A stretch of 64,000 nucleotides of DNA from Xiphophorus maculatus (taxonomy: Eukaryota > Chordata > Actinopteri > Cyprinodontiformes > Poeciliidae): the NCBI RefSeq assembly GCF_002775205.1, contig NC_036447.1, positions 29,386,245 to 29,450,244 on the forward strand, written 5' to 3'. The notes beneath the pieces are model-generated. The model saw only the letters and a list, made by a program, of their open reading frames with translations, ran no database searches and was not told where the DNA came from. How positions within the stretch are numbered: position 1 is the first letter of the stretch; each line of letters starts with the position of its first letter. This document shows positions 53,518 through 59,485 of this stretch, piece after piece. The translations under genes were made by a program, and so were the position numbers.

Positions 53518-55179
53518 ATGGCGCAGACAGGAGTTCAGTTGTATCGGGAAAAGTTCTCCTGTTCCATCTGTTTGGATCTACTGAAGGATCCGGTGACTAC
53601 ATCCTGTGGACACAGCTACTGCATGAGCTGTATTAAAGACCACTGGGATGTAGAGGACCAGAAGGGAATCCACAGCTGTCCTCAGTGCAGGAAGACTTTC
53701 AATCGCAGACCTGACCTCCAGAAAAACACCCTGTTAGCAGAGTTAGTGGAGGACCTGAAGAAGACTGGACTCCGACATGCTCTGGCCGACCACTGTTATG
53801 CTGGACCTGGAGATGTGGCCTGCGATGTCTGCACTGGGAGGAAGATGAAAGCTGTCAAGTCCTGTCTGGTTTGCTTGGCCTCATACTGTGAGGATCACCT
53901 CCAACCTCACTATGAATCTCATGCTTTTAAAAAACATAAACTTGTTAAAGCTTCTGTTGAACTTCAGCGGAACCTCTGCAGTCGTCATGACGAGGTGATG
54001 AAGATCTTCTGTCGTACTGATCAGCAGTCCATCTGTTACCTCTGCACTATGGATGAACATAAAGGCCATGTAACAGTGCCAGCTGCAGCAGAAAGGACTG
54101 AGAAGCAGAAGGAGCTCCAGGTGAGGCGACAACAAATCCAGCAGAGAATCCAGGACAGAGAGGAAGACATGAAGCTGCTTCAACAGGAAGTGGAGGTCAT
54201 CAATGTCTCTGCTGATAAAACAGTGGAGGACAGTGAGAAGATCTTCACTGAGCTGATGCATCTCCTCCAGAAAAGAAGCTCTGAGGTGAAGCAGCGGATC
54301 AGATCCCAGCAGGAAACTGAAGTGAATCGAGTCAAAGATGTTCAGGAGAAGCTGGAGCAGGAGATCAGTGAGCTGAAGAGGAAAGACGCTGAGCTGGAGC
54401 AGCTCTCACACACAGAGGATCACAACCAGTTTCTCCTCAACTACCCCTCACTGCCAGCACTCAGTGAGTCTACACACTCATCCAGCATCGACATCTGTCC
54501 TCTGAGACACTTTGAGGACGTGACAGCAGCTGTGTCAGAACTCAGAGAGAAGCTACAGGACGTCCTGAGGGACATGTGGACGAATGTCCCACTGACAGTC
54601 CCCCTGGTGGATGTTCTCCTGTCAGAACCAGAACCTAAGACCAGGAAGGACTTCTTGAAATATTCAAAAAGAATCACTCTGGATCCAAACACAGCAAACA
54701 CACATATATTATTATCTGAGGGAAACAAGAAAGGAACTTTGACGAAGGAAATGCAGTTTCATTTTGATCATCCAGACAGATTCTCTTATTGTCAGGTCCT
54801 GAGCAGAGAGAGTCTGACTGGGCGCTGTTACTGGGAAGTGCAGTGGAGCGGGAGAAGAGTTGATGTAGCAGTTTCATACAAGAGCATCAGCAGGTCAGGA
54901 CAAGAATGTGAGTTTCGAAGCAATGACAAATGTTGGTCATTATATTGTTGCACAGACTGGTACATATGTTGGCACAACAGAGTTGGAAATCTAATATCAG
55001 TTCCGGTTTCGTCCAGAGTAGGAGTGTACGTAGATCACAGAGCTGGTGTTCTGTCTTTCTACCGCGTCTCTGGAACCATGACTCTCCTCCACAGAGTCCA
55101 GACCTGCTTCACTGAGCCGCTGCATGCTGGAGTTGGGTTTTACGATATTGGAGACTCTGCTAAGTTTATTGGACTGTAA
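53518..55179 (+). CDS. TRIM-family E3 ubiquitin ligase (RING/B-box/coiled-coil/PRY-SPRY), copy 1
   Basis: A single-exon gene of 553 aa, start ATG 53518 (aaATGG context; the frame upstream has no ATG). RING finger at ~15-58 (CSICLDLLKDP, CGHSYCMSCI, CPQCR). First B-box at ~105-150 (CDVCTGRKMKAVKSC, YCEDHLQPH). Second B-box at ~155-190 (CSRHDEVMKIFC, CYLCTMDEHKGH). Long coiled coil at ~195-300. PRY-SPRY at ~375-553, with LDPNTAN, GRCYWEVQWSG, VGVYVDHRAGVLSFYRVS and LHAGVGFY. This layout matches the large teleost family related to TRIM25/TRIM16-like genes, cytoplasmic ligases often acting in antiviral signalling. The SPRY would determine target recognition. It is tail to tail with a near-identical copy at 59485-57821. 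An AATAAA begins one base after the stop. The exact family member is not resolved. Confidence 0.93.
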   Translation: MAQTGVQLYREKFSCSICLDLLKDPVTTSCGHSYCMSCIKDHWDVEDQKGIHSCPQCRKTFNRRPDLQKNTLLAELVEDLKKTGLRHALADHCYAGPGDVACDVCTGRKMKAVKSCLVCLASYCEDHLQPHYESHAFKKHKLVKASVELQRNLCSRHDEVMKIFCRTDQQSICYLCTMDEHKGHVTVPAAAERTEKQKELQVRRQQIQQRIQDREEDMKLLQQEVEVINVSADKTVEDSEKIFTELMHLLQKRSSEVKQRIRSQQETEVNRVKDVQEKLEQEISELKRKDAELEQLSHTEDHNQFLLNYPSLPALSESTHSSSIDICPLRHFEDVTAAVSELREKLQDVLRDMWTNVPLTVPLVDVLLSEPEPKTRKDFLKYSKRITLDPNTANTHILLSEGNKKGTLTKEMQFHFDHPDRFSYCQVLSRESLTGRCYWEVQWSGRRVDVAVSYKSISRSGQECEFRSNDKCWSLYCCTDWYICWHNRVGNLISVPVSSRVGVYVDHRAGVLSFYRVSGTMTLLHRVQTCFTEPLHAGVGFYDIGDSAKFIGL

Positions 55180-55186
55180 CAATAAA

Positions 55187-57780: not shown

Positions 57781-57820
57781 ACACATTGTAACCAGCTGGA
57801 GCTCTGATCACTTCTGTCTG

Positions 57821-59485
57821 TTACACTTCAATAAACGTAACAGAGTCTCCATAACTATAAAACCCAACTCCAGCATGCAGCGGCTCAGTGAAGCAGGTCT
57901 GGACTCTGTGGAGGAGAGTCATGGTTCCAGAGACGCGGTAGAAAGACAGAACGCCGGCTCTGTGATCCACGTACACTCCTACTCTGGACGAAACCGGAAC
58001 TGACATTCGAGTTTCTACTCTGTTGTGAAAAAACATGTAGATTTGCTTGTGACAATATAATGTCCAAGATTTGTCAGTGTTTCGAAAATCGCAGTCACCT
58101 TCCGACCTGCTGATGCTCTTGTATGAAACTGCTAAATCGACTTCCGTCCCGCTCCACTCCACCTCCCAGTAACAGCGCCCAGTCAGACTCTCTCTGCTGA
58201 GGATCTGAGTGCAGTTGGTGAATCTGTCTGGATGATCAAAATAAAACTGGTCTTCCTCCACTAGAGTCACTTTCTTGTTTCCCTCAGATAACAACAGAAA
58301 GTTGTTTGCTGTGTTTGGATCCAGAGTGATTCTTTTTGAATATTTCAAGAAGTCATTCCTGGTCTTAGGTTCTGGTTCTGACAGGAGAACATCCACCAGG
58401 GGGACTGTCAGTGGGACATTTGTCCTCATGTCCCTCAGGTTGTCCTGTAGCTTCTCTCTGAGTTCTGACACAGCTGCTGTCACGTCCTCAAAGTGTCTCA
58501 GAGGACGGATGTCGATGCTGGATGAGTGTGTAGACTCACTGAGTGCTGGCAGTGAGGGGTAGTTGAGGAGAAACTGGTTGTGATCCTCTGTGTGTGAGAG
58601 CTGCTCCAGCTCAGCGTCTTTCCTCTTCAGCTCACTGATCTCCTGCTCCAGCTTCTCCTGAACATCTTTGACTCGATTCACTTCAGTTTCCTGCTGGGAT
58701 CTGATCCGCTGCTTCACCTCAGAGCTTCTTTTCTGGAGGAGATGCATCAGCTCAGTGAAGATCTTCTCACTGTCCTCCACTGTTTTATCAGCAGAGACAT
58801 TGATGACCTCCACTTCCTGTTGAAGCAGCTTCATGTCTTCCTCTCTGTTCTGGATTCTCTGCTGGATTTGTTGTCGCCTCACCTGGAGCTCCTTCTGCTT
58901 TCCAGTCCTTTCTGCTGCAGCTGGCACTGTTTCATGGCCTTTATGTTCATCCATAGTGCAGAGGTAACAGATGGACTGCTGATCAGTACGACAGAAGATC
59001 TTCATCACCTCGTCATGACGACTGCAGAGGTTCTCCTGGAGCCTCTTCGTCGGGGGGATCAGTTTATGCTTCTTCAAAGGCGGAGCATCATAGTGAGGTT
59101 GGAGGTCTCTCAGGCAGTAGGAGGCCAAACAGGATAAACAGGACTTGACAGCTTTCATCTTCCTCCCAGTGCAGACATCGCAGGCCACATCTCCAGGTCC
59201 AGCATAACAGTGGTCGGCCGGAGCATGTCGGAGTCCAGTCTTCTTCAGGTCCTCCACTAACTCTGCTAACAGGGTGTTTTTCTGGAGGTCAGGTCTGCGA
59301 TTGAAAGTCTTCCTGCACTGAGGACAGCTGTGGATTCCCTTCTGGTCCTCTACATCCCAGTGGTCTTTAATACAGCTCATGCAGTAGCTGTGTCCACAGG
59401 ATGTAGTCACCGGATCCTTCAGGAGATCCCAACAGATGGAACAGGAGAACCTTTCCTGATCCTGCTGAACCCTTGCTTGCGCCAT
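57821..59485 (-). CDS. TRIM-family E3 ubiquitin ligase (RING/B-box/coiled-coil/PRY-SPRY), copy 2
   Basis: A single-exon gene of 554 aa, start ATG 59485, with the same domain order as copy 1 (RING ~15-58, two B-boxes, coiled coil ~195-300, PRY-SPRY ~375-554). The RING core and coiled coil are almost unchanged; a ~400-base stretch of coiled-coil DNA shows about one difference. Changes cluster in the N-terminal tip (MAQARVQQDQERF), the B-box1/B-box2 joint (YCLRDLQPHYDAPPLKKHKL instead of YCEDHLQPHY...) and the SPRY (CHKQIYMFFHNRVETRMS in place of CCTDWYICWHNRVGNLIS), ending FIEV. One B-box1 ligand-like His is Asp. No stops or frameshifts, so it should be functional. The ISRE of copy 1 is degraded here. 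Confidence 0.93.
   Translation of the reverse strand: MAQARVQQDQERFSCSICWDLLKDPVTTSCGHSYCMSCIKDHWDVEDQKGIHSCPQCRKTFNRRPDLQKNTLLAELVEDLKKTGLRHAPADHCYAGPGDVACDVCTGRKMKAVKSCLSCLASYCLRDLQPHYDAPPLKKHKLIPPTKRLQENLCSRHDEVMKIFCRTDQQSICYLCTMDEHKGHETVPAAAERTGKQKELQVRRQQIQQRIQNREEDMKLLQQEVEVINVSADKTVEDSEKIFTELMHLLQKRSSEVKQRIRSQQETEVNRVKDVQEKLEQEISELKRKDAELEQLSHTEDHNQFLLNYPSLPALSESTHSSSIDIRPLRHFEDVTAAVSELREKLQDNLRDMRTNVPLTVPLVDVLLSEPEPKTRNDFLKYSKRITLDPNTANNFLLLSEGNKKVTLVEEDQFYFDHPDRFTNCTQILSRESLTGRCYWEVEWSGTEVDLAVSYKSISRSEGDCDFRNTDKSWTLYCHKQIYMFFHNRVETRMSVPVSSRVGVYVDHRAGVLSFYRVSGTMTLLHRVQTCFTEPLHAGVGFYSYGDSVTFIEV

Follow-up and report, generated by a model that had tools for sequence, protein, structure and literature searches.

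How can two paralogous genes be almost identical over long stretches, silent sites included, and differ in sharply bounded patches in between? This question is raised by two inverted TRIM genes, here named A and B, in a window of 64,000 nucleotides of the Xiphophorus maculatus genome (the whole stretch analysed; contig C5, 29386245-29450244, of the 704-Mb assembly). The genes are arranged tail to tail, and 2641 bp separate their coding sequences. It is quite probable, in our view, that the inverted pair A and B is old and had its backbone homogenised by gene conversion, that the SPRY region and the termini retained their divergence, and that a cassette at the end of B-box 1 was swapped.

53518-55179, forward strand: gene A, intact single-exon TRIM of 553 aa (open frame and Pfam)
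57821-59485, reverse strand: gene B, intact single-exon TRIM of 554 aa, inverted partner of A with the same architecture (open frame and Pfam)

For both proteins Pfam gives zf-C3HC4_4, zf-B_box, TRIM_CC, PRY and SPRY above cut-off and in that order, which is the domain order of the class IV TRIMs (RING, B-box, coiled coil and B30.2, or RBCC-B30.2). At a threshold of 0.001 a single B-box is called in each, namely B-box 2. As other TRIMs of class IV suggest, A and B are probably RING E3 ubiquitin ligases that dimerise via the coil and capture their target by the SPRY domain.

Shared and divergent blocks of the two genes

The proteins are 87.3% identical over 552 aligned residues, and 138 of the 1659 aligned bases of the coding sequences differ. 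Segmenting the codon alignment with two states yields seven blocks, of which four are divergent (21-39% of the bases) and stand between near-identical stretches (1.0-2.1%). The differences amount to 9/35 bases (26%) in codons 1-12, 3/313 (1.0%) in codons 12-116, 41/104 (39%) in codons 117-151, 10/731 (1.4%) in codons 151-395, 63/296 (21%) in codons 395-494, 3/146 (2.1%) in codons 495-543 and 9/34 (26%) in codons 543-554. The longest identical run has 341 bases, compared with a maximum of 146 in 10,000 permutations. Among the 482 codons that are identical in amino acid, 24 differ silently, and 198 consecutive ones (codons 150-355) carry no silent change, which was unmatched in 10,000 permutations. 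Silent (dS) and replacement (dN) divergence was estimated for five blocks by the method of Nei and Gojobori (NG86). It is low in the RING (dS 0.015, dN 0.008) and in B-box 2 with the coil (0.013 and 0.014), and the SPRY core has a dS of 0.08 and a dN of 0. The SPRY variable block reaches a dS of 0.344 and a dN of 0.234 (dN/dS 0.68), and the end of B-box 1, here called the joint, has a dS of 1.67, which is near saturation, and a dN of 0.40.

53554-53865, forward strand: A, RING to the start of B-box 1, codons 13-116; probably homogenised with B (3/313 differences, dS 0.015)
53866-53970, forward strand: A, B-box 1 joint, codons 117-151, of a PHYES-type class common to the gene pair on contig C23; 0.143 from the C23 genes and 0.390 from B; best genome match 87%, on C23
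53971-54699, forward strand: A, codons 152-394, comprising B-box 2, the coiled coil and the beginning of PRY; probably homogenised with B (10/731 differences, dS 0.013)
54700-54996, forward strand: A, variable PRY-SPRY block, residues 395-493; 63/296 differences, on hypervariable columns of the family
54997-55140, forward strand: conserved core of SPRY in A, residues 494-541; compared with B, three silent changes and no replacement
55141-55179, forward strand: A, variable C-terminus and stop codon; 9/34 differences
59138-59449, reverse strand: B, RING, codons 13-116, probably homogenised (segmentation, NG86)
59033-59137, reverse strand: B, B-box 1 joint, codons 117-151, of a DAPPL-type class also present in C14 genes and probably imported; Asp in place of the family's His127 (paralog comparison, trees, triple tests)
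58304-59032, reverse strand: B, B-box 2 and coiled coil, codons 152-394, probably homogenised (segmentation, NG86)
58004-58303, reverse strand: B, variable PRY-SPRY block, residues 395-494 (segmentation, NG86, family entropy)
57860-58003, reverse strand: B, conserved SPRY core, residues 495-542 (segmentation, NG86)

A preliminary description of the locus had reported a near-identical backbone with sharply bounded divergent patches at the N-terminus, the end of B-box 1 and in SPRY, and the segmentation and permutations bear out this pattern, including the uneven spread of silent divergence along the genes. Its list of divergent blocks was incomplete, as the C-terminal block of 12 codons diverges too. 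Its figure of about one change over ~400 bases was too low for the backbone (codons 12-116 plus 151-395), which has 13 differences in 1044 bases, although one stretch of 341 bases has none. The SPRY segment said to return to identity does so, since A residues 494-541, which include VGVYVDHRAGVLSFYRVS, show 0 replacement and 3 silent differences. However, the label "facing ligand" finds no support, as this is a family-conserved core with a mean column entropy of 0.40-0.57 bits in four 10-residue windows (494-533).

Outside the coding sequences, A and B are alignable upstream over 62 bp at 84%, after which the homology ends, and downstream in short patches only (26 bp at 96%, 38 bp at 82%). A recent duplication would be expected to leave near-identical flanks, whereas those observed are diverged, and therefore the pair appears to be old and the identity of the backbone to have been restored later. 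Silent identity thus lies in bounded tracts and exceeds that of the flanks, as is expected of interlocus conversion. Since it is confined to blocks and the flanks are old and diverged, gene conversion of the shared parts, which the preliminary description had proposed, is well supported by the sequences.

The B-box 1 joint

Both genes belong to a large family of single-exon TRIMs with frames of ~550 aa, and their close relatives are spread over many contigs. Searching the genome for PRY gave at least 150 scored matches of 389 candidates, of which about 65 lie within open frames of at least 541 aa (tallied from the table of matches); the count includes other TRIM-like families, as L001-L007 are just 27-34% identical to A. 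We aligned 32 close relatives with frames >500 aa from contigs C1, C3, C4, C6, C7, C8, C14, C16, C21 and C22, to which the C23 genes and more C14 genes were added later. No third gene sharing the A/B backbone was found among the aligned paralogs. In six of the seven blocks none of the 32 is nearer to A or B than these are to each other, with one paralog tying with B for closeness to A in the N-terminal 12 codons. The exception is the joint, where 27 of the 32 are nearer to A than B is, and 31 are nearer to B than A is, the latter count being biased, unlike the former, because 15 of the 32 were fetched since they or a neighbour match B's joint. In the joint tree a clade of A and B costs 20.9 log units and is rejected (approximately unbiased (AU) test, p = 0.005). 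The difference at the B-box joint had been read as retained or selected divergence, and this must be revised, as the joints of A and B belong to two separate classes within the family.

In the genome, A's joint best matches two C23 genes (87%), followed by C14 genes with 79-81% over the full length and partial matches of up to 91% over 56 bases, while the best matches of B's joint are C14 genes with 78%. The C23 genes, L052 and L053, stand beside A and B in trees of the coil (85%), SPRY (90%) and RING (56%); the joint and C23 trees omit L015, L058, whose open frame stops aligning past the joint, and L059, which is the same gene as L033. Silent change between A and C23 is similar in the joint (7/23) and in the RING (23/65), and the B-C23 joint is the outlier with 17/24. 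Since A's joint is as diverged from C23 as its RING is, whereas B's joint is far off, B is the likelier recipient of the swapped joint. Furthermore, triple tests identify A as recombinant with the C23 genes and B with the C14 genes L019, L020, L021 and L023, in each case with a tract of codons 117-151. The tests of A with C23, B with L019 and B with L021 were each reached by 0/300 permutations, and two of them by 0/5000.

The joint cassette also seems to change hands elsewhere in the family. In a trio of genes on C21 the joint differs at 21/105 bases, compared with 2-7/312 in the RING and 12-13/729 in the coil (2/312 and 13/729 for the closer pair), and in a C16 trio at 16/105, compared with 5-7/312 and 14-18/729. 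The odd joints of the C21 and C16 groups each resemble a gene from a different contig more closely (9/105 and 5/105), and five triple tests of these swaps gave 0/2000 permutations each. The tract starts at codon 117 or 121 and ends at about codon 138 in four of the five tests and at codon 180 in the fifth. Among 28 pairs with a backbone distance <0.06, the joint is identical in five and more than 15% different in nine.

Of the B-box 1 positions, C102, C105, C116, C119, C124, H131 and H140 are invariant in 34 sequences, as are the RING cysteines and histidine in an alignment of 32. Codon 127 of B (59105-59107) encodes Asp, and B is the sole exception to the His found in 33/34 sequences. We take position 127 to be a Cys/His position of the B-box 1 pattern with a role as zinc ligand, and the zinc site of B's B-box 1 may therefore be altered by Asp127.

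The C23 genes L052 and L053 (28.98 and 28.82 Mb) are a second inverted TRIM pair, 161 kb apart and with identical joints, and their SPRY diverges fast (5.5 silent and 44.5 replacement changes). In L033/L059 (C14, 23.844 Mb) identity to A reaches 91% over the initial 56 bases of the joint, and the remainder is unmatched, so that this joint may itself be a mosaic. Four further C14 genes, L026, L028, L030 and L032 (23.385-23.402 Mb), have frames of 446-485 aa that align with A only up to residue 361-373, which suggests that their SPRY ends are shortened or altered; the NG86 comparisons omit them for their shortened frames.

SPRY divergence, the coiled coil and alternative explanations

Within the variable SPRY block, the nearest relative of A is B, and vice versa. 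None of the 32 paralogs is nearer to either, the two form a clade with 98% ultrafast bootstrap, and A's block finds B first in the genome (80%), followed by C14 and C23 genes with 73-79%, among 40 places scored out of 163 candidates. As A's block finds B first, the SPRY divergence most likely dates from the old duplication, in agreement with the retained divergence assumed in the preliminary description. The SPRY differences are mostly replacements, as that description implied (48.3 of 64 in residues 395-493), and they fall on columns that vary in the whole family. In residues 374-553 the family entropy averages 1.91 bits at the 42 positions differing between A and B and 0.83 bits at the 138 identical ones (p = 1.9e-8). 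Family entropy and published loop mapping would thus link these differences to the variable loops.

Selected divergence, the second part of the earlier proposal, is not supported for this pair, as dN stays below dS in the block (0.234/0.344). For the family, positive selection on SPRY is suggested, and only suggested, by young pairs. Eleven of them give a pooled pN/pS (ratio of the proportions of replacement and silent differences) of 1.44 in the SPRY variable block, compared with 0.48-0.80 in the other three blocks, although the pairs are non-independent and were chosen for low SPRY silent divergence, which tends to raise the ratio. Five young pairs, one per group, have a pN of 0.122 and a pS of 0.073 (22.3 silent, 146.7 replacement changes; one-sided p = 0.010), but this set was picked after the counts had been seen and favours a high ratio, so that the pool of eleven is the less selected figure.

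Throughout the family, silent divergence is lowest in the coil. Among 20 paralogs (190 pairs) it amounts to 0.07-0.15 in six windows at codons 221-340 (minimum 0.074 at 281-300) and 0.18-0.55 in the other 22 windows, and the median over 230 pairs is 0.163 in B-box 2 and coil and 0.506 in the SPRY variable block. Moreover, pN tracks pS over the 28 windows (Pearson r 0.81), and the mean pN/pS is 0.57 in the coil and 0.52 elsewhere. Since the coil resembles the other regions in pN/pS, its low divergence points to a more recent common ancestry rather than to protein constraint, although some constraint on its silent sites is conceivable. Trees of RING, coil and SPRY (33 sequences, L015 omitted) reject each other (AU p <=0.0008). 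A GENECONV-like test of 30 of the 34 sequences (400 permutations each; L015, L019, L022 and L033 omitted as long-branch or gapped) found 53 of 435 pairs significant for all sites, 43 of them between contigs and 33 centred at codons 250-300, and 21 of 435 for third positions, 18 between contigs; the significant pairs are not mutually independent, and the between-contig counts do not count pairs with A or B as such. Restricted to silent changes in codons of invariant amino acid (67 sites), the test gave 0 of 435 pairs, and the claim of family-wide conversion hence rests on the third-position and all-site versions. L038 (C7) and L040 (C6) are identical at all 133 polymorphic sites of codons 234-374 and 16% different at polymorphic sites overall.

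Taken together, A and B would be old inverted duplicates within a very large single-exon fish TRIM family, between which interlocus gene conversion copied the RING and the B-box 2/coiled-coil stretches and perhaps, at an earlier time, also the SPRY core. The variable PRY-SPRY surface and both termini would have escaped conversion and kept the divergence of the original duplication on family-hypervariable columns. The end of B-box 1 would travel between paralogs as a single cassette, about 50-105 bases long. Most likely A retained the joint class common to the C23 sister pair and B acquired a C14-type cassette before the latest A-B conversions, which then presumably halted at the edges of this cassette, as it was too divergent to pair. 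Conversion would in this way keep the catalytic and dimer chassis common and leave the capture surface free to differ, and the pair may present differing capture surfaces on one E3 and dimerisation chassis, with an antiviral role by analogy with class IV TRIMs. The B-box adjoining the joint governs higher-order assembly in TRIM5-type proteins, and a role of the B-box 1 end in assembly is a guess from this analogy.

Some points weigh against this explanation. A recent donor of B's joint was not found in the assembly, where the best match is the 78% mentioned above, and the import would have to be old or the donor lost or unassembled. The RING tree supports the C23 genes as sisters only weakly (56%), and the opposite direction, with A as recipient from a C23-like gene, is conceivable. 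Furthermore, the top-scoring triple of B is the one with L015 (C8), which is one step higher and covers codons 138-151 only, and the joint spans only 105 bases. The sampling of the paralogs and the null result of the silent-only fragment test belong here as well. Three alternative explanations appear less likely. A recent duplication of A and B, with their divergent blocks (joint, SPRY and ends) imported from third paralogs, would fit the backbone, which is diverged by ~1%, and joints from two classes indicate that import happens. The flanks, alignable at 84% over 62 bp and then in short patches only, speak against this course, as does the SPRY block, in which A and B are mutually nearest among the 32 paralogs (98% clade) and no copy nearer to A than B is seen among 40 places scored out of 163 candidates, and we regard it as improbable.

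Selection could instead have held the backbone, silent bases included, for the sake of RNA structure, an overlapping signal or codon usage, with the divergent blocks relaxed or positively selected and no conversion involved. That backbone regions tend to be conserved in the family too, and that the silent-only test gave 0/435, agrees with such constraint. Yet A and B differ at 1/65 silent sites in the RING, compared with a median of 0.336 of silent sites in other paralog pairs, the parallel variation of pN and pS across the family (r 0.81; mean pN/pS 0.57 in the coil vs 0.52 elsewhere) fits differing coalescence times better than amino-acid constraint, and the domain trees conflict, which makes constraint hardly likely as the explanation. 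Diversifying selection on SPRY and joint in this pair, with the joint diverging in place by rapid substitution and nothing imported, is very improbable. Of the five blocks measured, the joint is the most diverged at silent sites (15.5/23), its dN is below its dS, and each joint fits a different paralog class at diagnostic codons. In favour of such selection, the SPRY sub-block 461-494, with boundaries set after the data had been seen, is rich in replacements (25.5, with 3.5 silent changes), and young pairs elsewhere have a SPRY pN/pS >1.

Known systems and the surroundings of the pair

The process is of a known kind, a concerted backbone with a diversifying B30.2, and the swapped B-box cassette is its twist. 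As far as the sections of the papers used here tell, the teleost finTRIMs (ftr) are a large TRIM family with a positively selected B30.2 (PMC2657112). Positive selection was found also in their RING-B-box part, together with one GARD breakpoint there, so that exchange near B-box 1 has a precedent, and 47/55 hits in one species, by context medaka, were single-exon (PMC2657112). The likeness to A and B is one of description and not of sequence comparison; coil-centred homogenisation and a moving joint cassette are not described there for finTRIM, and the word "conversion" is absent from the main text (PMC2657112). The variable loops of B30.2 are positively selected in the btr and hltr/TRIM35-like fish subsets as well, with seven breakpoints in the btr B30.2 and none in trim35/hltr (PMC3137616). 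These breakpoints lie inside B30.2, whereas the family of A and B exchanges RING, coil and B-box 1 joint. In the zebrafish NLR-B30.2 genes, which are another protein family, conversion acts domain-wise, with NACHT homogenised within groups and B30.2 exchanged across groups and bearing signs of positive selection (PMC4852459). In the present family, by contrast, sharing across contigs is greatest for the coil, and SPRY stays the most distinct. The human TRIM genes A1/A2 on chromosome 11 are a tail-to-tail pair for which conversion was inferred, and only one breakpoint was found in their family, situated between RING and B-box 2 and near the position of the present joint (PMC3228819). Unlike in that pair, conversion in A and B appears patchwise and the pair old. 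No description of a class-switching joint cassette or of coil-centred conversion in fish TRIMs was found in a limited literature survey, which covered chiefly titles and the openings of abstracts.

Among solved chains, the RING, B-box and coil of B are closest to TRIM25 (4cfg, E 2.9e-64, residues 11-316), and its PRY-SPRY is closest among TRIMs to TRIM16 (7qs3, E 8.1e-26). To our knowledge, neither TRIM25 nor TRIM16 is a large converted family in mammals.

Published work on fish TRIMs, to judge from the same sources, gives most weight to the SPRY/B30.2 loops, while the sharpest class-switching difference between A and B is in B-box 1. If the joint swap holds, it separates what is kept common by conversion from what is swapped by exchange within one open reading frame, and it offers natural pairs in which each module could be tested on an almost unchanged chassis. 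With the RING, coil and SPRY trees in mutual conflict, neither phylogenies of whole genes nor dN/dS tests are safe for TRIM families of this kind. It is a tentative and rather doubtful thought that a genome-wide recombination economy exists, in which the coil chassis is interchangeable by ectopic conversion and SPRY, by substitution and selection, and the B-box 1 cassette, by swapping, are varied separately. In that case a coil chassis shared across chromosomes could allow the products to co-dimerise, and diversity would have a second axis in the B-box cassette, which might determine the TRIMs that assemble with one another.

The pair is flanked by two genes of the FGF-BP1 family (Pfam PF06473) at 50222-50881 and 61762-62496, both on the reverse strand. 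A tblastn search of the window at E 0.01 matches A and B only and gives no third TRIM copy, and a search of viral contigs gave one stretch fitting a pattern, with no relative confirmed. The alignable upstream segments are the following.

53456-53517, forward strand: 62 bp before the ATG of A, alignable with B at 84%, holding AGTTTCACTTTC (53464-53475) and GGAAGTGAAA (53478-53487)
59486-59547, reverse strand: the 62-bp counterpart of B, with both elements altered

A keeps GGAANNGAAA and AGTTTCACTTTC (53464-53487), and B has lost both at the matching place (about 59516-59539). The motif GGAANNGAAA occurs within 45 bases of the ATG in 24 of 45 family genes (shuffled mean 0.14); as these genes are related, the enrichment shows conservation by descent and not function. 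We take the GGAANNGAAA pattern to resemble an ETS-IRF composite element, and AGTTTCACTTTC upstream of A presumably fits an interferon-stimulated response element. GGAANNGAAA may be a promoter element or else the 3' splice site of an intron in the 5' untranslated region, as TTTCTGTTTTCAG in several paralogs would suggest. About 40 bp downstream of the stop codon of B, a long TTA array is followed by an ATA array (57627-57780), the two jointly forming an inverted repeat.

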